Under the pieces are notes generated by a model. That model saw only the letters and a list, made by a program, of their open reading frames with translations. It ran no database searches and was not told the origin of the DNA. DNA of 64,000 bases, from NCBI GenBank assembly GCA_003554585.1, contig PWGV01000093.1:1-64000 (forward strand), read 5' to 3'. Numbering within the stretch: the first letter of the stretch is position 1; every line of letters starts with the position of its first letter. Shown one piece after another: positions 44,014-57,326 of the stretch. Origin of the DNA: Halobacteroidaceae bacterium. GTDB lineage: Bacteria > Bacillota > Halanaerobiia > B1SED10-174. The translations under genes were made by a program, and so were the position numbers.

Positions 44014-44907
44014 CTATATGGCCAGTTTACCCAGGCCGATTGATAGGAGTTTGGTCCGGGCGTCATCTGCACGGGAGGTAAGCACTACCGGTACCTTTGC
44101 TCCCACCACAATACTTGCCCCCCGGAAACCGCCGAGATAAAGCATAGCTTTATAAAAAACATTCCCCGCTTCAATATCTGGCATTAGCAAAATATCAGCT
44201 TTCCCTGCTACCTGGCTGGTTATGCCTTTGTGTTTTGCGGCTTCTTCATTAACTGCATTATCCAGAGCTAAAGGACCATCAACAACAACACCTTTTATCT
44301 GTCCCCGCTCCGCCATCTTGGATAAAGCCGCGGCGTCTAAAGTTGCAGGCATATCAGGGTTGACCACTTCAACCGCGGCAAGAGGAGCAACCTTTGGTTT
44401 TTCAATTCCCAGCTTATGCGCTACTTCTGCCGCATTGGAAATGATCTGAGCTTTCTTTTCCAGGTCAGGAGCAATATTCATGGCCCCATCAGTCATAATT
44501 ATCAGTCTACTCAAACCAAAGTCCATTACTGAAAGATGGCTTAAAAGCCTATCCCGACGAAGACCATATTCCTTAGTTAAAAGAGCCCGGAGAAGGGTTG
44601 AAGTCCCAATTAAACCTTTCATCAGGAATTCGGCTTCCCCCCCGGCCACGAGTTCCATGGTTTTTTGGGCAATTTCATCCGGGTCGGAGCAATCAACAAT
44701 CCAGCCGGGATCAACCTGGAAGTCCGCCTTTTTTCCTGCTTCAATAATAGCCTCCCTTTCTCCAACAAGGACTGGTTCGATCATTCCACTTTCCTGGGCC
44801 TGTTTTACAGCTTCTAAAACCTCGCTATCGGCTGCTGCGGCAACTGCCATTTTTGCTTTTGGGCTTGATTGGGCTGCTTGTAAAAGCTCTTCCAAGTTTT
44901 TAAACAT
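44014..44907 (-). CDS. ptb: Phosphate butyryltransferase
   Basis: FLMKGLIGTSTLLRALL; MTDGAMNIAPDLEKKAQII; VDGPLALDNAVN. Confidence 0.94.
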   Translation of the reverse strand: MFKNLEELLQAAQSSPKAKMAVAAAADSEVLEAVKQAQESGMIEPVLVGEREAIIEAGKKADFQVDPGWIVDCSDPDEIAQKTMELVAGGEAEFLMKGLIGTSTLLRALLTKEYGLRRDRLLSHLSVMDFGLSRLIIMTDGAMNIAPDLEKKAQIISNAAEVAHKLGIEKPKVAPLAAVEVVNPDMPATLDAAALSKMAERGQIKGVVVDGPLALDNAVNEEAAKHKGITSQVAGKADILLMPDIEAGNVFYKAMLYLGGFRGASIVVGAKVPVVLTSRADDARTKLLSIGLGKLAI

Positions 44908-45995
44908 TACTCCACCTCTTCGCCATAATCTTTCGCCTCCTCTTCTCCTGTAGAGACCCGGTAAGCACCAAGCGCCAGAGCCTCCATCTCCATTGACCCC
45001 CGGATCACCCTTACTGGAGCAATGAACTCAACCCTTTTGGAAATTCCTTCTGTAAGATAATCCGATTTGGCGATGCCTCCTGTAAGGATTACCTGATCCA
45101 CTTCTCCTCGGAGAACAGTTGCGGCCATTCCAATTTCCTTGCTAATCTGGTAAATCATGCCTTCATAGACCTTTTTTGCTTCTTCGTCTCCCTGGGAAAT
45201 CCGTTTTTCGATTTCCCTGCAATCATTCGTTTCCAGGTAGGCCAGAAGTCCCCCGCGGCGGGTAATCTTGTTCCGCAATTCCCGGGGAGAATACTTGCCA
45301 CTGAAGGCCATCTTAACCAGGTCACCAACAGGAAGTCCCCCGGTTCTTTCCGGAGAATAGGGACCCATTTCGTTGGCATTGTTAACATCCATAATTCGAC
45401 CTTTTTCCAGGGCCGCTATGGATATACCCCCACCCAGATGGGCTACCACAGCGTTAAACTCATCCAGTTTTTTCCCCTTTTCCCCGGCAACAATTCGGGC
45501 TACCGCCTTGATATTAAGCGCATGTCCCAGGGAACGTCGCTGGATTTCCGGGATTCCAGAGTAGCGCGCCAGGGGTGTAAATTCATCAACGGAAACCGGA
45601 TCCGTAATGTAGACCGGGATATTTTCATCTCGACCCAGTTCATACCCTATCAAACCTGCCAGATTAGACGGGTGCTGACCCTGCACTCCTACCCGTAAAT
45701 CTTTGCACATTGCTTCATTTACTACGTAAGTACCGCCGGCGAGGGGTTTTAATAGGCCACCCCGGGCAGCAACTGCCATAAAATCAGCAGGTTTCCAGCC
45801 CTTTTGCTGTAAAAAATCTCGAACTACCTGCACCCGATAATCCAGCTGATCTGGAATATCGGGAAATTTCTCCATTTCCCCGACAGGATGCTGGATATTC
45901 TCATCAAGAATCAGCCCCTGAGCAGCATCCCACACTGCAAGTTTAGTCGAAGTTGAGCCGGGATTGATTACCAGAATTTTTTCACTCATAACCAA
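44907..45995 (-). CDS. buk: Butyrate kinase (copy 2)
   Basis: KILVINPGSTSTKLAVWD; GVQGQHPSNLAGLIGYELG. Confidence 0.95.
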   Translation of the reverse strand: MVMSEKILVINPGSTSTKLAVWDAAQGLILDENIQHPVGEMEKFPDIPDQLDYRVQVVRDFLQQKGWKPADFMAVAARGGLLKPLAGGTYVVNEAMCKDLRVGVQGQHPSNLAGLIGYELGRDENIPVYITDPVSVDEFTPLARYSGIPEIQRRSLGHALNIKAVARIVAGEKGKKLDEFNAVVAHLGGGISIAALEKGRIMDVNNANEMGPYSPERTGGLPVGDLVKMAFSGKYSPRELRNKITRRGGLLAYLETNDCREIEKRISQGDEEAKKVYEGMIYQISKEIGMAATVLRGEVDQVILTGGIAKSDYLTEGISKRVEFIAPVRVIRGSMEMEALALGAYRVSTGEEEAKDYGEEVE

Positions 45996-46004
45996 AGCCT
46001 CCTG

Positions 46005-47087
46005 TTATTTTCCCGAAAAAATCCTTCTAATCTGGTAAACTCCTTCGATTCGGTTCTCGGCCATCATGTCAGCCGCTTCAAGAGTCGGAATCTTGTTTTC
46101 CCGGGCCAGCCGGAATACCTCGAGGAGCATATCGTAGATTCCATCGGCTTTCTTAAAAGCTCTTTCCTTGCTGTATTCCTGCTCAGCAGTTTCGTCTGCT
46201 ACCTGGATCAGGCCACCGGAATTAATTACATAATCCGGAGCATAAAGAATCCCTTTCTCTTCAAGAGCTTTTCCGTGTTTTTCTTCATCGGCGAGTACAT
46301 TATTGGCTGCTCCACCGATAATTTCACAGTTAAAGCGGCCAATGGTTTCATCATTTACAACACTACCCAGAGCATTGGGAGAAAAGATATGGCATTCAAC
46401 ATCATATGCCTTTTCCGGATCTACAACTTCAACATCGGAATAATCCCTTTTTACTCGCTCCAGATGTTCTTCATTAACGTCACAAACAACAATTTCTGCT
46501 CCTTCTTCAGTCAGGTGACCAACAAGTTTGTGACCAACCTTTCCAACACCCTGCACTACAATTTTTAACCCTTCAAGGCTGTCAGTGCCATACTTTTCTT
46601 TGGCGCAGGCTTTAAGGCCCTTCCAGGTTCCGTAAGCTGTAATTACTGAGGTGTCTCCGCTTCCACCATATTCTTCGGGCAGAGCACCAACATATTCAGT
46701 TTCCCTTCCCATGACAACGAAATCTTCAAAAACAGTCCCAACGTCAGTCCCCGTGGAAAAACGACCTTTGAGCCCTTCGATGAAACGGCCCATGGCCCGG
46801 AACAGTCTCTCAGATTTATCCTTCTTGGGATCAGCATAAATTACAGCTTTGGCTCCTCCAAAATCAACTCCTGCAGCAGCAGATTTGTAAGTCATTCCCT
46901 TAGCCAGGCGCAGAGCATCGTAAATTGCCTCATCCTCGTTTTCGTAATCCCACATCCGGCAGCCCCCCAGCCCCGGACCTAAAACAGTATTGTGGATGGC
47001 AATAATTCCCTTCAGTCCTGATTTTTTGTGCTGGCAAAGAAACAACTGCTCGTGCCCTTCCTTGGCCATTTCCTTGAATATTTCCAT
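46005..47087 (-). CDS. Leu/Val/Phe-type amino acid dehydrogenase (copy 2, divergent)
   Basis: GPGLGGCRMWDY; DFGGAKAVIYADP; STGTDVGT; SPNALGSVVND. Confidence 0.9.
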   Translation of the reverse strand: MEIFKEMAKEGHEQLFLCQHKKSGLKGIIAIHNTVLGPGLGGCRMWDYENEDEAIYDALRLAKGMTYKSAAAGVDFGGAKAVIYADPKKDKSERLFRAMGRFIEGLKGRFSTGTDVGTVFEDFVVMGRETEYVGALPEEYGGSGDTSVITAYGTWKGLKACAKEKYGTDSLEGLKIVVQGVGKVGHKLVGHLTEEGAEIVVCDVNEEHLERVKRDYSDVEVVDPEKAYDVECHIFSPNALGSVVNDETIGRFNCEIIGGAANNVLADEEKHGKALEEKGILYAPDYVINSGGLIQVADETAEQEYSKERAFKKADGIYDMLLEVFRLARENKIPTLEAADMMAENRIEGVYQIRRIFSGK

Positions 47088-47126
47088 TAAATACCCTCCC
47101 TCCTGTTTTTCTCATAATTATAATAA

Positions 47127-47144
47127 AAGCAAAACTTGTACCAA
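47127..47144 (-). promoter_or_regulatory. Sigma-54 (-24/-12) promoter upstream of the branched-chain amino-acid operon
   Basis: Minus strand TTGGTACAAGTTTTGCTT; GG-N10-GC spacing. Confidence 0.75.
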
Positions 47145-47174
47145 AAAAAGAACCCCGTTCAGGACTGGGGTTCT
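47143..47174 (-). terminator. Rho-independent terminator of the bkdR-like gene
   Basis: Minus strand AGAACCCC-N10-GGGGTTCT-TTTTTT. Confidence 0.8.
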
Positions 47175-47185
47175 CACCAACCCAT

Positions 47186-47222
47186 CCTGCAGGCCCCTGC
47201 AGTTTTTGCAACTTTTTGCAGG
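47186..47222. promoter_or_regulatory. Palindromic/direct-repeat cluster, candidate sigma-54 activator (UAS) site
   Basis: CCTGCAGG and CCTGCAG plus two TTTTTGCA direct repeats between bkdR-like gene and operon. Confidence 0.4.
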
Positions 47223-47231
47223 AAGTTTTTT

Positions 47232-48806
47232 TCAGTCAAGGTTGTGTTTTTTCATTTTGTAGTAAAGATTGCGTTCAGAAATCCCCATTTTTTCTGCGGC
47301 TTTTTTCCGGTTACCCTCGCTGGTGGAGAGGGCCCTGCGCAAAACCTCTCTTTCTTTTTTCTGCAGGGCTCCTTTCAGATCCAGTATTCCATCCGCAGAA
47401 ATCTCTTCCTCTCCGACCTGAATATCAGCAAGTTTGTAAGCCAGTCCCAAAGCCGGAAAGTGTTGAGCTTCGAGAACTTCGGAATTATAATTAACTTCTA
47501 TCATTGCTCGCCCAACCACATTCTCCAGCTCGCGAACATTTCCCGGCCAGTCATATTCCTGCAGGAGTTCCAGCGCTTCCGGAGCACATTTTTTTACCAT
47601 TCGCCCATATTCCTGGTTAAAGCGCCTGATTAAGTGATTTACCAGTTTAGGGATATCAGTTTTCCTTTCCCGTAGAGGGGGAAGATAAATCGGAAAAACA
47701 TTAAGACGATAATATAAGTCCTCGCGGAAATTCCCTTTTCGAACTTCTTCTTCGAGGTTGGCGTTCGTTGCCACAATGACCCTTACGTTAACATTGACGG
47801 GGTCAGTACCTCCTACTGGAGTAAATTCTTTCTCCTGGAGCACACGCAGGAGTTTAGCCTGCATCTGAAAATCCATCTTGGCGACCTCGTCCAGGAAAAT
47901 CGACCCATTATTTGCTTCAGCAAATAATCCCTTTTTGCCCCCAGGGCGGGCTCCGGTGAAAGCCCCTTCCTCGTAACCGAATAATTCGCTTTCAATCAAA
48001 GTATCGGGAATAGCTGGGCAGTTAACCCGGATAAACTGGGCCTTACTCCGGGCGCTTTCATTATGAATCGCGTGCGCAAAAAACTCTTTTCCTGTTCCAC
48101 TCTCTCCCCTGAGCAAAACTGTAACCGGGGTCTGGGAAGCTTTTTTAGCCTGTACTATTACTCTTTTTATCCCCGGGCTTGATCCAATAATATCTTCAAA
48201 AGCATACTTGGCCCGGAGCCGTCGGAGCATCCAGTTGGCCCGATCCAGTTCATCGGATAATTTCTTCAGCTCCGAAATATCATGGATTACTCCCACACTT
48301 CCCCGCAACTTTCCGTTTATTATAATCGGGGCAACATTAACAATTACATCCCTTTTCTGGGGGCCAACTTTAAGCGGAACTCCGGTTACAGGTTTACCGG
48401 TTTGTAAAACCTTGTAGTGCATGCTCTCCCCTTCAGCTATATCAACTGTCGCCGGACGACCAATAACGTCTTTCTCGGTAAGTCCAGTAATTCTGGTATA
48501 AGCAGGGTTTATTAAAAGTCCCCGTCCGTTTTCATCAACCACGGAAATGGCATCCTGGGCGGAATCAATAATTGCCTGGAGCATCTGTAAACTCTCCCCC
48601 TGCAGGGGGTCTGAGTTAAGGATGGCAAGAAATTTCTGGAAAGGGGGCGGCAATTCTGCTTCATTACCTCCCGTTTGGAGTTTAATTACCAGATCATAAT
48701 TTTTATTTTTTACTTCTTCCCGGTAAACCTCAATACCCCTCAAAAGCTCAAGTTGCTGGATAAAGCTCTGCCAACCCTGAAGGGATTGGGGTATCAAAAC
48801 TCTCAT
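47232..48806 (-). CDS. bkdR: BkdR-like sigma-54-dependent activator (PAS-AAA-Fis HTH)
   Basis: GESGTGKEFFAHAIH; YEEGAFTGARPGGKKG; NRKKAAEKMGISERNLYYKMKKH; upstream of ptb/buk/LeuDH. Confidence 0.88.
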   Translation of the reverse strand: MRVLIPQSLQGWQSFIQQLELLRGIEVYREEVKNKNYDLVIKLQTGGNEAELPPPFQKFLAILNSDPLQGESLQMLQAIIDSAQDAISVVDENGRGLLINPAYTRITGLTEKDVIGRPATVDIAEGESMHYKVLQTGKPVTGVPLKVGPQKRDVIVNVAPIIINGKLRGSVGVIHDISELKKLSDELDRANWMLRRLRAKYAFEDIIGSSPGIKRVIVQAKKASQTPVTVLLRGESGTGKEFFAHAIHNESARSKAQFIRVNCPAIPDTLIESELFGYEEGAFTGARPGGKKGLFAEANNGSIFLDEVAKMDFQMQAKLLRVLQEKEFTPVGGTDPVNVNVRVIVATNANLEEEVRKGNFREDLYYRLNVFPIYLPPLRERKTDIPKLVNHLIRRFNQEYGRMVKKCAPEALELLQEYDWPGNVRELENVVGRAMIEVNYNSEVLEAQHFPALGLAYKLADIQVGEEEISADGILDLKGALQKKEREVLRRALSTSEGNRKKAAEKMGISERNLYYKMKKHNLD

Positions 48807-49465
48807 TATTCTTTTCCTCCTACCGCCCAGGGAGGTTGCAGGTGAATCTCCACAGGTAATATATCCCCGGGAAGGTCAACCTCGGGAATTAAATCAGCCA
48901 AAACAGCCGTAAACTTAATTGGTATGCCCTGCTCCCGGGCCAGGGTTTCAACTCGATTGTAGCCCTCTTCTACTTCCCCCCGAGATGTTTCCGCTCCAAG
49001 ATTCCCGTTAGCAACAAAATGCGTAACCTCAAGGCGAGAAGCATTTTCAATGGCTTCTTTCAATTCGAGCAGGTTCTTTTTATTTGAAGAAAAAGGCCTA
49101 TAGGGATTAATGACCATAATCAATTCGTAATTTCCCGGGGTGAGGTATTGGCCCAGGCTACCCAGGACCCTGGCTCCATCATCATCACCCCCTACATCTA
49201 AAACCGCTTCCCGTTCCGGGGCCTGAAGAGCTCTGTAGATTTCGGAGGTAATAATCGGTAGATCGGCCTGAGCCATATCCCTGGGATAAATTAAATCAAT
49301 TCCCGCCTTTTCTAAGGTTTTTTCTGCTTCTCTAAGCCGAAAATACGGTTTTACAATATCAAGATCCACAAGAAAAGGCGGTTTTTCCCTGGAAAGAGCA
49401 TAGTTAATACTGATTTCGGTTTTTCCACTGCCAAAATTACCCGCAAAAATTTTAATCCGAGCCAT
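48806..49465 (-). CDS. P-loop ATP-binding protein of unknown function
   Basis: IKIFAGNFGSGKTEISINYAL (Walker A); VLDVGGDDDG. Confidence 0.75.
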   Translation of the reverse strand: MARIKIFAGNFGSGKTEISINYALSREKPPFLVDLDIVKPYFRLREAEKTLEKAGIDLIYPRDMAQADLPIITSEIYRALQAPEREAVLDVGGDDDGARVLGSLGQYLTPGNYELIMVINPYRPFSSNKKNLLELKEAIENASRLEVTHFVANGNLGAETSRGEVEEGYNRVETLAREQGIPIKFTAVLADLIPEVDLPGDILPVEIHLQPPWAVGGKE

Positions 49466-49827: not shown

Positions 49828-51432
49828 ATGGTGAAAAGAAAATCTGTAATAATGTTGTGTCTCGTCTTCCTGCTGGCCCTGGGTTTATCCCTAAACGCCT
49901 CGGCCACACGGGTTCCTGAATTTACCATACTCACAACAACTGAAGGCTATGATCCGATCCGTTTCGAAGCAGCCTTTTTAATTCAGGATGCCTGGGCAGC
50001 TCTTGGTATCCAGGTCGATGTTCAGCCCCTGGAATTCAGCACCCTGATTGACAGGTTCTACAACGAACAGGACTTTGATATTGCTATTGTCGGTTGGTCG
50101 GGCCGGGTTGACCGCCTCGATCCCCAGCATTTCCTGGGAACACTCCATTCCGGTCAGACTGATGTCGGTGGGAACAACCCTGGAGGCTATGAAAACGAAC
50201 GCTACGATGAACTTTTCGAAATGCAGGCCCGGGAATTTGATCCTGATCAGCGGCGGGAATATGTCCTGGAAATGCAAAAGGTTGCCATGGAAGAACAACC
50301 CCTGAGTATTCTTTTCTACAGGGATGAAGTCCTTGCGTACAATGTAAATACCTTCGCGGGTTATGTTCCCATGGCCGGAGAGGGCCTCTACACCGAGTGG
50401 CTTCCATTTGATGTTTATCCCGTTGGGGACTCCAACACCCTGACCATCGGAACCAGCCAGGAACCGGACAATATTAACCCCCTCGATTCAACCACTGTCT
50501 GGGGCTGGAAATTCATGCGCCTCTACTACGACAAACTGGTTCGCTTATCCCCGGATATTGAACCACTTCCCTGGGCAGCAGAATCAGTAGAAGCCTATGA
50601 CGAACAGACTATCGAAGTTGTTATTCGGGACGACATGCTTTTCCACGACGGGGAGCCTGTAACTGTAGAAGACGTTAAATTCTCCTACGATTACATGGTG
50701 GAACAGGACTTTGCTTACTTCCGTCCCTTCTACGATCCCCTGGAAGAGGTTATTATTATCGATGACCAGACCCTGCACTTTGTCCTCAAAGAACCTACCT
50801 CTTTCTTCATTACAGTAACCCTGAGCCAGATCCCCATCCTTCCCAAGCACCTCTGGGAAGACATCGAGGAGGCCAATCAGCTCGCCCCTGAAGATGTTCC
50901 CACAATTGGTAGCGGCCCCATGAAGTTTGACCGCTACGACCGCGGGGAATACAAGCGGCTGGTCAAGTTCGAAGATTACTTCTTGGCTGATGAAATTAAT
51001 ATTGAAGCAATTGACTATATCATATACGCTGACGCCGAAGGAACCTATACCGGTATGGTCACTGGTGAAGCTGACATGACTGCCTGGAGATTGGAACCCG
51101 CTCAAATTAATCTCGCCGAGCAGGAAGATCACCTGGAAGTTGTCAGTGTTCCCGACTTTGGTTACTACCACATGACCTACAATACCCGCCTGCCCGCACT
51201 GGATGATCCTGATTTCCGCCGGGCAATTGCCCACTCCATCCCCCACGAGACCTTGGTCAATGTTCTCCTGGATGGCCGTGGCGAGCGGGGAACTTCAATA
51301 ATTGCGCCTGTAAACACCTTCTGGCATAATCCTGACGTTCCCATCTTTGAATACAGCCTTGAAACCGCACGGATCCTGCTGGAGCAGGCCGGTTACTGGA
51401 TAGACGATGACGGCCGGCTTAATCTGCCGTAA
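49828..51432 (+). CDS. Peptide/nickel-type ABC transporter substrate-binding protein (SBP_bac_5), apparently circularly permuted
   Basis: Signal peptide (aa ~1-27), then aa 30-198 matching the usual C-terminal segment (EFTILTTTEGYDPIRFEAAFLIQDAWAALGIQVDVQPLEFSTLI..DIAIVGWSG), then aa ~203-534 matching the usual N-terminal part (NTLTIGTSQEPDNINP..MLFHDGEPVTVEDVKFSYDYM..ETARILLEQAGYWIDDDGRLNLP*). Confidence 0.92.
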   Translation: MVKRKSVIMLCLVFLLALGLSLNASATRVPEFTILTTTEGYDPIRFEAAFLIQDAWAALGIQVDVQPLEFSTLIDRFYNEQDFDIAIVGWSGRVDRLDPQHFLGTLHSGQTDVGGNNPGGYENERYDELFEMQAREFDPDQRREYVLEMQKVAMEEQPLSILFYRDEVLAYNVNTFAGYVPMAGEGLYTEWLPFDVYPVGDSNTLTIGTSQEPDNINPLDSTTVWGWKFMRLYYDKLVRLSPDIEPLPWAAESVEAYDEQTIEVVIRDDMLFHDGEPVTVEDVKFSYDYMVEQDFAYFRPFYDPLEEVIIIDDQTLHFVLKEPTSFFITVTLSQIPILPKHLWEDIEEANQLAPEDVPTIGSGPMKFDRYDRGEYKRLVKFEDYFLADEINIEAIDYIIYADAEGTYTGMVTGEADMTAWRLEPAQINLAEQEDHLEVVSVPDFGYYHMTYNTRLPALDDPDFRRAIAHSIPHETLVNVLLDGRGERGTSIIAPVNTFWHNPDVPIFEYSLETARILLEQAGYWIDDDGRLNLP

Positions 51433-51514: not shown

Positions 51515-52504
51515 ATGGGTAAAAGAAAATTTATTTTTCGGCGCCTTCTGCAAATGGTAGTAACTTTTTTGATAATCCTGACCGGGCTCTTTTTCGTTTT
51601 TCGCCTGACCCTACCTGACCCAACTGCTGCCCTGGTTATGGAAGGATTATCTGCAGAAGCCCAGGCCATGGTTCGAGCCCGTTTTGGCCTTGACCGGCCC
51701 CTGTGGCAACAGTATTTTATCTACCTGGGTAACTTTTTCCAGGGTGAATTCGGCATGTCCTTTCATTACCGATCGGCGATCGCCCCAATTGTCTGGGAAA
51801 AGCTTTTAAACACCCTGGTATTGATGTTCCCGGCAATAATTGTTTCCTACTCTATTGGTCCCCTGCTCGGGGTAATATTATCCTGGCGGAGAGGGACAAG
51901 AGTCGAATTCAGTGGTATTGTGGGGGGACTTTTTCTTCGTTCAGCTCCAGTTTTCTGGACGGGGATGATTTTCATTATGGTTTTTGGTATCTGGCTGGGA
52001 ATTCTTCCAACCAGCGGAATGAGAACACTACCTTATGAAGCCGCTCATTTCTGGGATAAAATTTTCACTTTTGATTTCCTCTGGCATTTAATGCTGCCCG
52101 CTTTTACTATTGCCATCTACTACGTGGCATTACCAATGCTAATCATGCGCAATACCATGCTGGAGGTAATGGGTGAGGATTTTATTGAATTATGCCAGGC
52201 CAAAGGTTTAAATGAACGAACAATAATGTATAAACACGCTGCCCGCAACGCCCTGCTGCCTGTTGTAACCCAGGCGGCTATCACCGTCGGCCTGGCTGTT
52301 GGAGGGCAGGTTGTGGTTGAAGTTGTCTTCTCCTGGCCCGGCCTGGGGCGGGAAATAATTCAGTCTGTAAGAACCAGTGACTTCCCTATGGCCCAGGCTT
52401 GCTTTATGTTAATGGCCGGAATGGTTATGGGAATGAATTTCCTGGCTGACCTGGTTTACGGCTACCTTGATCCCCGGGTTGTTTACCAGAAAGGGGGCAA
52501 ATAA
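51515..52504 (+). CDS. DppB-like ABC transporter permease
   Basis: FGLDRPLWQQYFIYLGNFFQGEFGMS; RAKGLNE-type EAA loop (CQAKGLNERTIMYKHAARNALLPVVT). Confidence 0.94.
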   Translation: MGKRKFIFRRLLQMVVTFLIILTGLFFVFRLTLPDPTAALVMEGLSAEAQAMVRARFGLDRPLWQQYFIYLGNFFQGEFGMSFHYRSAIAPIVWEKLLNTLVLMFPAIIVSYSIGPLLGVILSWRRGTRVEFSGIVGGLFLRSAPVFWTGMIFIMVFGIWLGILPTSGMRTLPYEAAHFWDKIFTFDFLWHLMLPAFTIAIYYVALPMLIMRNTMLEVMGEDFIELCQAKGLNERTIMYKHAARNALLPVVTQAAITVGLAVGGQVVVEVVFSWPGLGREIIQSVRTSDFPMAQACFMLMAGMVMGMNFLADLVYGYLDPRVVYQKGGK

Positions 52505-52505
52505 T

Positions 52506-54269
52506 ATGAGCAAACAAAGCAGCCGCTGGAAACAATACCAGCCTTATTTTCAATCAATGAAGGCACCTTTTAAAGCAATCTGGGCCGATCCCCTGGGGCG
52601 ACCGGGATCAATTTTATTTCTCCTGGTTCTCTTTGTGGCAATTTTTGCTCCCCTCCTCGCAACCCACGACCCCCATGAAATGAACCAGCGTGTGGAAGGA
52701 ACAGCTGCAACTTTTATTGAGGGGCAATGGGAAAGAATGCGGGTAATTGGTTACAAACCATTAACCGCAACTGCGGTCATCTCCCCGGGTGAAAGTTTTG
52801 CTGTCGGTAGGGAAGGAACCATTCTTCACTTCGATGGTAACCGGTGGAATGAAGAAGAATCGCCTGTAAATACCTCCCTGCTCTCAGTTGACTTCTTTTC
52901 TTCTGAGTTCGGTTTTGTTGTAGGAGAAAATGGGGTAATTATCAAGTATGATGGCCTTTCCTGGGAACAGTTGGAGAGTCCCGTAGAGATAGCACTTAAT
53001 GGGGTTGCAGTCCCAGCCCCTGACAAAGCGATCGCCGTTGGCGAAGACGGAACAATTCTCAGCTGGGACGGAAACTCCTGGAGCATTCTTGATAACCCTG
53101 CCACCCGAGATTTAATGGCCATTAATATGGTCAACCCCAATTCGGGAGTAATCGTGGGAGACAGGGGAACCATCCTTCATTACCAGGATGGAGAATTTGT
53201 TAATCCCTCTTACCGGACTTTTATGGATGGGACCTTCCGCAGGTTAAATGCCGTTGCCCTTTCCGAGGAGGGCTTTGGTTTTGCCACCGGAGAAAGGGGT
53301 GAAATCCTCGGATTTGATGGGGAAGACTGGTATAACATGACCAGTCCTGAAAGTCGGGAGCTAACAGCAGTAGGAATTGTTGGTCCCGAAGAAGCTTATA
53401 TCCTTGGGATTCGCGGAATCATTCTTAAATTTGACGGTGAAAACTGGACAAGGCTCGGTCTGGGTTACCACCGCAGTTTTCGCGGGCTGGATATTGAGGA
53501 CGGTTACGGTTTTGGAGTTGGGACTGATCCCTATATCAACGAATTATCCCCTCCCACCTGGGAGCACCTTTTTGGAACCACCCACCTGGGAAGGGATATC
53601 TGGAGCCAGGTAATGTACGGTTCGCGGACTGCGCTAATTGTGGGAATCGTCACCGCCCTTATTGTTAATATTATCGGGGTGGTTATTGGCTTAACCTCGG
53701 GTTATTTCCGGGGGCGGGTTGATAATATCCTGATGCGCATAGTTGACATTATGTACGGTCTTCCGCTGGAACCCTTTGCCATTATCCTGGTTTTAATTTT
53801 CCGGCCCAGCCTTTGGATTATTATCCTGGCAATTGGGCTTTTAACCTGGAGAACAAATGCCCGGATTATTCGCTCCCAGGTCCTTTCCCTGGTTGAGCGC
53901 CCCTTTATTAAAGCTGCCCGGGTAGCCGGAGCAAGTAATTTACGAATAATTCTGGTTCACATCGCCCCCAATGTCCTTCCCCTTGCCTTTTTGCAGCTCG
54001 CCGTAGCAATTGGCTATGCAATAACAGCAGAAGCGACCCTTAGTTTCCTGGGCCTTGGCCCACCAAGGTTATACAGCTGGGGCACAATACTGCACGCTGC
54101 CCGTCTGTCGGGGGCCTGGCGAACCGCCTGGTGGTGGGTAATCCCCCCCGGTATATTCATAAGTTTGACAGTGGTATCAGTATTCCTGATTTCCAGATCA
54201 CTTGAAGTTCTTACTAATCCACGCCTGAGAGGAGGTAGTACCCGTGCTCCTAGAAGTAAAAAATCTTAA
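52506..54269 (+). CDS. DppC-like ABC transporter permease with inserted extracytoplasmic repeat domain
   Basis: TM1 (GSILFLLVLFVAIFAPLLATHDPHEMN), large insertion, then PPTWEHLFGTTHLGRDIWSQVMYGSRTALIVG and EAA loop AARVAGASNLRIILVHIAPNVLP; ATG 52506 after GGGGG SD. Confidence 0.93.
   Translation: MSKQSSRWKQYQPYFQSMKAPFKAIWADPLGRPGSILFLLVLFVAIFAPLLATHDPHEMNQRVEGTAATFIEGQWERMRVIGYKPLTATAVISPGESFAVGREGTILHFDGNRWNEEESPVNTSLLSVDFFSSEFGFVVGENGVIIKYDGLSWEQLESPVEIALNGVAVPAPDKAIAVGEDGTILSWDGNSWSILDNPATRDLMAINMVNPNSGVIVGDRGTILHYQDGEFVNPSYRTFMDGTFRRLNAVALSEEGFGFATGERGEILGFDGEDWYNMTSPESRELTAVGIVGPEEAYILGIRGIILKFDGENWTRLGLGYHRSFRGLDIEDGYGFGVGTDPYINELSPPTWEHLFGTTHLGRDIWSQVMYGSRTALIVGIVTALIVNIIGVVIGLTSGYFRGRVDNILMRIVDIMYGLPLEPFAIILVLIFRPSLWIIILAIGLLTWRTNARIIRSQVLSLVERPFIKAARVAGASNLRIILVHIAPNVLPLAFLQLAVAIGYAITAEATLSFLGLGPPRLYSWGTILHAARLSGAWRTAWWWVIPPGIFISLTVVSVFLISRSLEVLTNPRLRGGSTRAPRSKKS
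52689..53546 (+). repeat. In-frame protein repeats (about seven Ycf48/BNR-like blades) inside the DppC-like permease
   Basis: Recurring L-x-A-V-x(6-8)-A-V-G-E-x-G-T-I-L-x-F-D-G-x-x-W units, ~39-44 aa each. Confidence 0.85.
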
Positions 54270-56505
54270 AACCTACTACCAAGTGGATGATATTGTAGTC
54301 AAGGCACTGGATGGAGTTTCTTTTAAACTGAAAAAAGGAGATAACCTGGGGCTTGTTGGGGAAAGTGGCTGTGGAAAAACAACTGCCGCCAAATCAATCA
54401 ACAGGATCCTACCTCCCAACGGGGGAATTGTTGACGGCCAGGTTATTTTCAAAGGCAAGGACCTGGTCCCCCTCAATAATAATCAGATGAACAAGGTTCG
54501 CTGGAAAGAAATTTCCATGGTTACCCAGAGTGCCATGAACGCCCTGGACCCGGTTTATAAGATCGGGGACCAGATTACTGAAGCTATCCATACGCACGAA
54601 AATATGAGTAATAAAGAAGCTTTAAAGCGGGCCAAAGAGTTATTTGGGATGGTTGGACTGGAGAAAAAGCGTCTCAGGGATTTCCCCCATCAGCTATCGG
54701 GGGGAATGAAACAGCGGGTTGTAATCGCAATGGCTCTTGCTCTTAGCCCGGACCTGGTAATCGCCGATGAGCCAACAACCGCCCTGGATGTGGTTGTCCA
54801 GGATGGGATTTTAAAACAATTTATTGATCTGCAGAGCCAGATCCAGTCTTCAATAATCCTCGTTACCCACGATATCTCGGTTGTGGCTGAAATCTGTCAG
54901 CGGGTTGCAGTTATGTACGCGGGAAAAATAATGGAACAGGGCACAACCAGGGAAATTTTCAAAGATTCCTTCCACCCATATACCCTGGGCTTACTGAACG
55001 CCTACCCCACCCTCGAAGCTGCCAAAGGCGATATTATCTCCATTCCCGGATCTCCCCCGGACCTGGCAACAGATATTACCGGCTGTCGGTTCCGGGAACG
55101 CTGTCCCTTCAGTACAGAAAAATGCAGGGAAGAACCTGATCCTGTTGAAGTTGCTCCAGGTCACGAAGTTCTCTGCCACTACCCGGAAAAAGTCGAAACC
55201 TTCCGGAAAGAGTCTACCAAGACTTCAACCTGGCAGGGAGAAACACCTCCACCGAGCAAAAAAGGAACTGTTGGAGAAAAAAATGCGCTCGAAATTCAGG
55301 GTTTGAAAAAATATTTCCCCATCAAACAAAGTTTCTTCGGAGGCAAAAAAACAATTCTGAGGGCTGTTGACGGTGTAGACTTTACTGTAAAAGAAAGAGA
55401 AATCGTAGGCCTGGCTGGAGAAAGCGGCTCAGGAAAGAGTACTATCGGTGAACTCCTTGCCAACCTGCAAAACACCACGGACGGGAAAATTCTCTACCTG
55501 GGCAAGGAAACTGAATTGCAAAAGAAAAAACACGATAAGGCTTTTCGGCGCAATTTCCAGGTTGTTTTCCAGGATCCTTATGAAACTCTTAATCCTCGTT
55601 TTACTGTATTAAATACAATCATGGAACCTCTTGTGATTCATAAAATCGGCAAGGATTATGAAGACCGGCTGGAAAGGGTTAAGAAAGCCCTACAATTAGC
55701 CGAGCTTTCCCCTCCTGAAAACTTCCTTTCCCGTTTCCCCCATCAGCTCTCTGGAGGGCAAAGGCAAAGAGTGGCATTAGCCCGAGCTATTGTCCTTGAA
55801 CCCAAATTCATAATAGCTGACGAACCAGTTTCCATGCTTGACGTTTCCATTCGGGCCGGAATTTTAAACCTGCTAAAACGCATGCGAGATGAACTCGGAG
55901 CTTCCCTTATTTACATTTCACACGACCTGGCCACAATCCGTTATATCTGCAATAGAACTGCTATTCTTTACCTCGGCCGGATTATGGAAATTGGTGAAAC
56001 GGAAAAAGTAATCGCCCAGGCTGCACACCCTTATACCCAGATGCTTTTAGCCGCTGTTCCCATACCTGACCCGGATACAAACCGGGAACGGGTTGATCCC
56101 CGGGGAGAAATCCCCGATCCCATTGACATGCCCAATGGTTGCCGTTTTCACCCCCGCTGCCCCAAAGCTTTTGCCCGCTGTGGCTGGGAAGGTAAAGACG
56201 TCCGTAATCTCCTGGAAAATCCTGAGTTTGAAGATCTGGCAAAACCTTTTGCCGATGAAATCTCGGGTTACGAAATTGAAGGGCTGGACCTCATTGTCAA
56301 AATGCAGTGGAAAGGGGAAACTCGCTGGGAAGAATTGAAAAAAACCCTGGAAAAAATCATGAATAATAATAATTCAACTATGCTGGAAACTATGACAGAA
56401 ATGAAGGTTGAAGATACTGGGTTGCGTATTTCTTTCCCTCCCAAAGAAGACCCCCAGATTAAAAACATCGATTCTGATCATGATGTTGCCTGTTATCTTT
56501 TCTAA
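54244..56505 (+). CDS. Fused DppD-DppF ABC transporter ATPase (two complete NBDs)
   Basis: Two Walker A (GESGCGKTT, GESGSGKST), two signatures (LSGGMKQR, LSGGQRQR), two oligo_HPY-type Cys motifs; GTG start with GAGGAGG. Confidence 0.93.
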   Translation: MLLEVKNLKTYYQVDDIVVKALDGVSFKLKKGDNLGLVGESGCGKTTAAKSINRILPPNGGIVDGQVIFKGKDLVPLNNNQMNKVRWKEISMVTQSAMNALDPVYKIGDQITEAIHTHENMSNKEALKRAKELFGMVGLEKKRLRDFPHQLSGGMKQRVVIAMALALSPDLVIADEPTTALDVVVQDGILKQFIDLQSQIQSSIILVTHDISVVAEICQRVAVMYAGKIMEQGTTREIFKDSFHPYTLGLLNAYPTLEAAKGDIISIPGSPPDLATDITGCRFRERCPFSTEKCREEPDPVEVAPGHEVLCHYPEKVETFRKESTKTSTWQGETPPPSKKGTVGEKNALEIQGLKKYFPIKQSFFGGKKTILRAVDGVDFTVKEREIVGLAGESGSGKSTIGELLANLQNTTDGKILYLGKETELQKKKHDKAFRRNFQVVFQDPYETLNPRFTVLNTIMEPLVIHKIGKDYEDRLERVKKALQLAELSPPENFLSRFPHQLSGGQRQRVALARAIVLEPKFIIADEPVSMLDVSIRAGILNLLKRMRDELGASLIYISHDLATIRYICNRTAILYLGRIMEIGETEKVIAQAAHPYTQMLLAAVPIPDPDTNRERVDPRGEIPDPIDMPNGCRFHPRCPKAFARCGWEGKDVRNLLENPEFEDLAKPFADEISGYEIEGLDLIVKMQWKGETRWEELKKTLEKIMNNNNSTMLETMTEMKVEDTGLRISFPPKEDPQIKNIDSDHDVACYLF

Positions 56506-56543: not shown

Positions 56544-57326
56544 TTAACCGGCTTGGGTTTCTAGCCGCAGTTTGTCTGCTATTTTGGCAATAAATTGAGA
56601 ATTTGTTGGTTTCCCTGATTTTTCCTCAACGGAATTCCCAAAGATGCTTTTCATTTCTGCAAAATTCCCCCGCTCCCAGGAAACCTCAATTGCGTGCCTG
56701 ATAGCCCTCTCTACCCGGGAAGGGGTAGTATTATATTTTTTGGCTACGGTGGGGTATAATTCTTTTGTTACAGCACCAATTAATGCAATTTCTTCAATTA
56801 CCATTGTAATGGCATCCCGTAGGTACAGGTATCCCTTTATATGAGCAGGAACACCAAGTTGATGCATAATATTGGTTACCCTTACTTCAAGATTATTACT
56901 GCTTTTTTTAAATCCGGTTTTTTTGAAATTTGTTTTTTGGGGGCTGGAATCCTTTAACTGCCTGATCCTTTTGCCCACTATCTCCAGGTCAAAAGGCTTT
57001 AAAATATAGTAATCAGCACCCAATTCCACAAACCGCTGGATAACGTCCTGGTGTCCAAATGAAGTAAGCATAATTACCTTTAAGTCAGGGTCTCGGCCTT
57101 TTTCATTCAATTCTTCCAGGACTCCAATGCCATCGAGATAAGGCATAATAATGTCAAGGAGTAAAACATCAGGAGGATTCCTTTCCATTAATTCCAAGCA
57201 TTTAGCACCATCATAAGCAACACCTATCAGTTCTAAATCGTCCTGTTGGGAAAAAAATTCCTCGACCATTTCGCAAAAATCCAGGTTGTCATCGGCAAGT
57301 AAAACCTTAATTTTTTCTTGAATCAT
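56544..57326 (-). CDS. spo0A: Sporulation master regulator Spo0A
   Basis: Receiver ([22 protein letters not shown]) and C-terminal [30 protein letters not shown]. Confidence 0.98.

Follow-up and report, generated by a model that had tools for sequence, protein, structure and literature searches.

The 534-amino-acid (aa) product of the open reading frame at 49828-51432 (+) belongs to the cluster C (SBP_bac_5) family of substrate-binding proteins (SBPs), and its two blocks occur in inverted order. We consider it very likely that this is a natural circularly permuted cluster C SBP that serves a dedicated OppBCDF-type ABC importer; it should remain two-lobed, and it may have been derived by tandem duplication and trimming. 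The computed evidence for this reading consists of a cut common to 44 inverted proteins, a single origin of both blocks, a monophyletic OppB linkage, and a confident AlphaFold model. The gene lies in a 64,000-nucleotide stretch of DNA from a Halobacteroidaceae bacterium (contig PWGV01000093.1), hereafter called the window, and its coordinates and translation were confirmed. The features of the gene and of its operon are as follows.

49828..49905 (+): signal peptide, ~aa 1-26, Sec type, no lipobox (from the sequence; a low-confidence leader helix in the model)
49918..50367 (+): former C-terminal block, aa 31-180, equivalent to DppA mature residues ~345-492 (canonical HMM 354-487; PF00496 287-362; residue mapping)
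50368..50433 (+): junction of the old C-terminus and old N-terminus, ~aa 181-202 (alignments A1 and A2; aa 203 is DppA mature residue 1)
50434..51429 (+): former N-terminal block, aa 203-534, equivalent to DppA mature residues 1-~343 (canonical HMM 32-350; PF00496 2-284)
51515..52504 (+): OppB/DppB-type permease (NCBIfam Opp2B/Opp4B-like, below cut-offs; OppB tree)
52467..54269 (+): OppC/DppC-type permease with a 7-bladed YCF48-like beta-propeller (Pfam, AlphaFold2, Foldseek)
54244..56505 (+): fused OppD-OppF ATPase, 753 aa, two ABC domains in one chain (NCBIfam, both halves)

Few binding proteins of bacteria and archaea are as abundant as the cluster C SBPs, and membership of the window's protein in this family is clear. 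The whole protein matches PF00496 (SBP_bac_5) with an E value of 6e-67 and 226.7 bits against a cut-off of 32.4, it carries a signal peptide, and its operon encodes OppB/OppC-type permeases and ABC ATPases, as is usual for cluster C SBPs. No named equivalog (DppA, OppA, SapA, NikA, and others) can be assigned, given that all ten NCBIfam SBP matches fall far under their cut-offs; the Opp4A match, for example, scores 119.5 against a cut-off of 650. Homology to cluster B (MglB) proteins was sought in the Pfam, PDB-sequence, and Foldseek comparisons, and these returned cluster C relatives solely. The protein resembles DppA, OppA, AppA, and NikA in whole-protein homology, length, secretion signal, and an operon that encodes OppB and OppC together with two ABC ATPase domains, but differs from them in its inverted blocks and in having new termini in domain III.

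An earlier sequence-only reading had proposed that the blocks of this SBP are inverted and together span the whole family model, and both profile searches bear this out. On the 368 positions of Pfam SBP_bac_5, aa 29-108 align with model positions 287-362 (E 3.4e-9 when this block is scanned alone) and aa 246-529 align with positions 2-284. A canonical profile built from 31 canonical SBPs, with E. coli DppA, OppA, and NikA among them, likewise places aa 31-174 of the native protein in its C-terminal third (354-487, E 9e-29) and aa 201-527 in its N-terminal two thirds (32-350, E 1e-81). Once the sequence is rotated at aa 200, a single colinear match spans profile positions 33-486 (E 2e-112). The match stays split for the rotations tried at aa ≥220 or ≤140, and rotation at aa 180 also merges the segments because this residue sits at the edge of the linker. 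The same inversion is apparent against relatives in the PDB, including B. subtilis AppA (1xoc), the best solved relative, where aa 204-529 align with chain residues 23-349 and aa 32-179 with residues 362-502. When the 44 permuted proteins were compared with the canonical profile, all had the inverted order and none had the canonical N-to-C order, whereas all 31 canonical controls were colinear.

Several further details of the sequence-only reading also held. The size of the protein is ordinary for an SBP, every segment is present once with no duplicated segments, and a signal peptide precedes the new N-terminus. The usual mature N-terminus, which had been placed at about aa 203, does begin there, as this residue is the aligned partner of K1 in mature E. 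coli DppA. Within the former C-terminal block, aa 92-99 carry the signature motif of the family, GR(x)2R(x)DP, and the new C-terminus follows a hairpin ending ...AGYWIDDDGRLNLP. The placement of the new termini in domain II, on the other hand, needs correcting. On mature DppA the cut maps between residues 343 and 346, corresponding to OppA 353 and 359, and this position belongs to domain III, the second lobe, under the customary division of OppA and DppA into three domains.

An AlphaFold2 model computed from 36 permuted sequences describes a compact single protein (pLDDT 91.6, pTM 0.85) whose chain is ordered across the new junction. The best Foldseek matches to this model are canonical cluster C SBPs, which align over ~330-400 columns of the 534 residues. 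This short span is expected when a permuted chain is compared by an aligner that follows sequence order. Among the best 60 chains from a profile search of PDB sequences, none matched through the junction, and thus a solved structure with this topology was not found.

The sequence-only reading had called for a search for orthologues sharing the rearranged order, and 43 were collected besides the window's protein. The resulting 44 proteins have the same cut, range from 27 to 96% identity to the window's protein, and derive from Halanaerobiales, other Bacillota, Spirochaeta, Nitriliruptoria, Alphaproteobacteria, and haloarchaea. A scan of ~85,000 genomes contributed 18 loci with relatives that are 56-96% identical and nearly all full length, located in Halanaerobiales and other Bacillota metagenome-assembled genomes (MAGs), Spirochaeta, Nitriliruptoria, and the alphaproteobacterium Mesorhizobium (now Neoaquamicrobium) microcysteis. 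Plasmid records yielded 26 matches at E ≤1e-45, including those from the haloarchaea Halalkalicoccus, Natrononativus, Halobaculum, Haladaptatus, Halorussus, and Haloprofundus and from Neorhizobium, Roseomonas, Ketogulonicigenium, and Microvirga. The source genome itself has a second copy (55% identical) plus a fragment, and no relatives were found on viral contigs. The permuted form is sparse among sampled genomes, with matches at E 1e-90 in at least 3 of 399 from the window's phylum (its own genome counted). Elsewhere it was detected in at least 13 of 385 for the class of M. microcysteis (this species counted), at least 1 of 247 for the phylum of the Spirochaeta locus (the genome carrying that locus alone), and at least 2 of 247 for the phylum of the Nitriliruptoria locus, where a third match is a canonical SBP (L065). 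These counts are lower bounds because few candidates per genome were scored.

This distribution bears directly on whether the inverted gene is an assembly artefact, in which two tandem SBP genes collapsed such that the 3′ part of one came to lie ahead of the 5′ part of the next. Raw material for such an error is present, as tandem canonical SBP genes exist in the source genome (contig C76), and the window belongs to a draft assembly of 215 contigs. However, the cut recurs in 43 other proteins at 27-96% identity, including those encoded by complete alphaproteobacterial and haloarchaeal plasmids. Nearly all of these come from independent assemblies, comprising draft MAGs, isolate genomes, and complete plasmids, and the genes accompany a complete transporter gene set wherever the flank suffices. 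Because the same cut is shared by proteins from independent assemblies, we rejected misassembly of two tandem genes, whose probability we judge to be negligible.

Phylogenetic analyses, for which all SBP and permease trees were unrooted, indicate that both parts of the permuted protein share a common history. In a tree of rotated sequences, the permuted SBPs form one clade (99/98) whose sister is L065, a canonical actinobacterial protein (100/99). The permuted clade is also recovered when the blocks are treated separately, with support of 98/98 for the N-block and 96/70 for the C-block (the SH-aLRT value of 70 being weaker), and L065 adjoins it in both trees. Similarly, the OppB proteins associated with permuted SBPs group in a single clade (99), to which the L065 transporter is sister (95), and the OppC tree agrees with that of OppB, with weak support (41). 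Of the canonical systems in the SBP and OppB trees, the actinobacterial SBP-permease operon represented by L065 and L075 lies closest to the permuted lineage.

These trees also weigh against a chimera, in which the C-block of one SBP was fused to the N-block of another, distantly related SBP. Where tandem paralogues exist, unlike neighbours could indeed fuse. Nevertheless, each block tree gives one permuted clade beside the same canonical neighbour, L065, and this concordance argues that both parts descend from one ancestor. A chimera of unlike SBPs was therefore rejected as very improbable. Fusion of recent, near-identical tandem copies would be indistinguishable from permutation by duplication, and is effectively the same event. 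In a separate observation, an operon on contig C76 of the source genome (L033, 1426-4759) contains a tandem pair of canonical SBP genes, which is the type of duplication that could yield a permuted gene.

Each segment is therefore present once in rotated order, both parts have common ancestry, and the cut is the same throughout, as is characteristic of natural circular permutation. Given one SBP clade, concordant blocks, and a monophyletic OppB, the permutation is best read as a single old event in one transporter lineage that would later have crossed phylum boundaries and passed between the bacterial and archaeal domains. We infer that permutation is the derived state because it is rare, and because the canonical order is found in the 31 controls and in all solved relatives found. 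An ancestral canonical SBP gene may have undergone tandem duplication and in-frame fusion, followed by trimming. These steps would have joined the old C- and N-termini in domain I and opened new termini in a hairpin of domain III. No duplicated or fused SBP intermediate was found.

By homology, the permuted SBP would still act as a two-lobed Venus flytrap that hands its ligand to OppB and OppC. The leaders of its relatives, located at the new N-terminus, are of the Sec, lipoprotein, Tat, or Tat-lipobox-like type, varying by lineage. Since some lineages have a lipobox at this new N-terminus, the membrane anchor of the lipoprotein members should be on domain III (lobe 2) rather than on domain I, and the signal peptide of other members would be attached there as well.

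The transporter genes reveal a second unusual feature. Pfam recognizes OppC_N (just under its cut-off), PSII_BNR, and BPD_transp_1 in the window's OppC, whose propeller spans ~275 aa (~aa 78-352) and is inserted after TM1 in the loop exposed on the outer side in OppC proteins. An AlphaFold2 model of this permease assigns the propeller a pLDDT of ~94 and the membrane part lower values, and Foldseek matches the model to YCF48 (2xbg) and DppC (8z1y_B). The propeller is of the same 7-bladed type as that of the YCF48 photosystem II assembly factor, here placed within an ABC permease loop. E. coli DppABCDF (8z1y) and M. tuberculosis OppABCD have the same importer architecture, and in Foldseek alignments the OppC permease domain is 33-40% identical to that of the window's protein. 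Unlike the window's operon, they have a canonical SBP and an OppC without a propeller. Propeller-carrying OppC proteins and fused ATPases are characteristic of the window's subgroup, including for this OppC the second copy in the source genome, whereas another subgroup of permuted SBPs is served by an ordinary OppC and separate OppD and OppF proteins. Because permuted SBPs occur without it, the propeller is unnecessary for permutation, and we rejected it as the cause.

A broader proposal, which we regard as rather unlikely, is that this is a cross-domain importer lineage in which the permutation places the tether on domain III rather than domain I and alters docking of the SBP, with the OppC propeller of one branch providing an extra docking or gating platform. 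Less probable still is that the permuted SBP has a changed role, perhaps as a sensor or as a subunit permanently docked to the importer, possibly via the OppC propeller. The transporter lineage is coherent in the OppB tree, and every propeller-carrying OppC found belongs to a permuted-SBP operon, with none detected outside such operons in a 300-genome sample and among plasmids. However, the subgroup whose OppC lacks a propeller is permuted all the same, and the permuted-SBP operons resemble those of ordinary importers. We favor the reading of a permuted SBP that serves a dedicated importer.

Residues of the ligand site provide some indication of what this importer might carry. In E. coli DppA, D408 binds the amino group of the peptide. 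Its counterpart in the window's protein by alignment is D95, a position that varies in the family, and the D408 loop of permuted SBPs is longer by a two-residue insertion and contains an arginine (R96) that is invariant. The position of DppA R355 falls in a gap, leaving this residue without an aligned counterpart; R355 and D408 are the two residues altered in the DppA R383D+D436R structure (precursor numbering). With D95 variable, the insert and R96 present, and R355 lacking a counterpart, the ligand is unlikely to be a simple dipeptide. Genes near those of the relatives encode M28, M81, M20, and TldD-type peptidases, D-aminoacylase, dipeptide epimerase, hydantoinase/oxoprolinase, creatininase, Asp/Glu racemase, and serine/threonine dehydratase. 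These neighbours, which belong solely to distant relatives, suggest small peptide-like compounds that are N-blocked, cyclic, or contain D-residues as candidate ligands.

Natural permutation of ABC binding proteins is already known. TpMglB-2 (Tp0684) of Treponema pallidum and its relatives, designated "Type Ic / Cluster Bc", is a natural circularly permuted ABC binding protein present in many species (PMC4990184). It is a glucose-binding protein of cluster B (Type I) with another fold class and a permutation in its N-lobe, whereas the window's SBP belongs to cluster C, and the two permutations are independent events. For TpMglB-2, permutation was proposed to be an adaptation to tethering (PMC4990184); by comparison, many permuted cluster C members, the window's included, lack a lipobox. 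The sequence-only reading knew of no described natural permutation in cluster C, and the open-access full-text literature indeed yields TpMglB-2 alone and no description of a permuted cluster C SBP. The permuted cluster C proteins are apparently an old line within a large and important protein family that had so far gone undescribed. Where annotation relies on profile scores only, segment order goes unnoticed. All solved relatives found share one chain order, and the permuted lineage, with its different order, offers a test of how topology affects lobe closure, docking, and tethering. Permuted SBPs are also natural scaffolds, already permuted, for biosensor design.

Some observations concern the genes that flank the operon. 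A divergent neighbour cluster (44014-48806) includes phosphate butyryltransferase-like, butyrate kinase-like, and Leu/Glu-type dehydrogenase genes and a PAS sigma-54 activator, and we read it as bkd-like branched-chain amino acid catabolism, with a Pfam basis for the activator alone. Between this regulator and the SBP gene, 48806-49465 encodes a protein of 219 aa whose start, GNFGSGKTE, is P-loop-like and which matches nothing in Pfam. Immediately downstream of the transporter operon lies spo0A (56544-57326; Response_reg and Spo0A_C), and a Spo0A homologue occupies the same position in the three nearest relatives (L001-L003).
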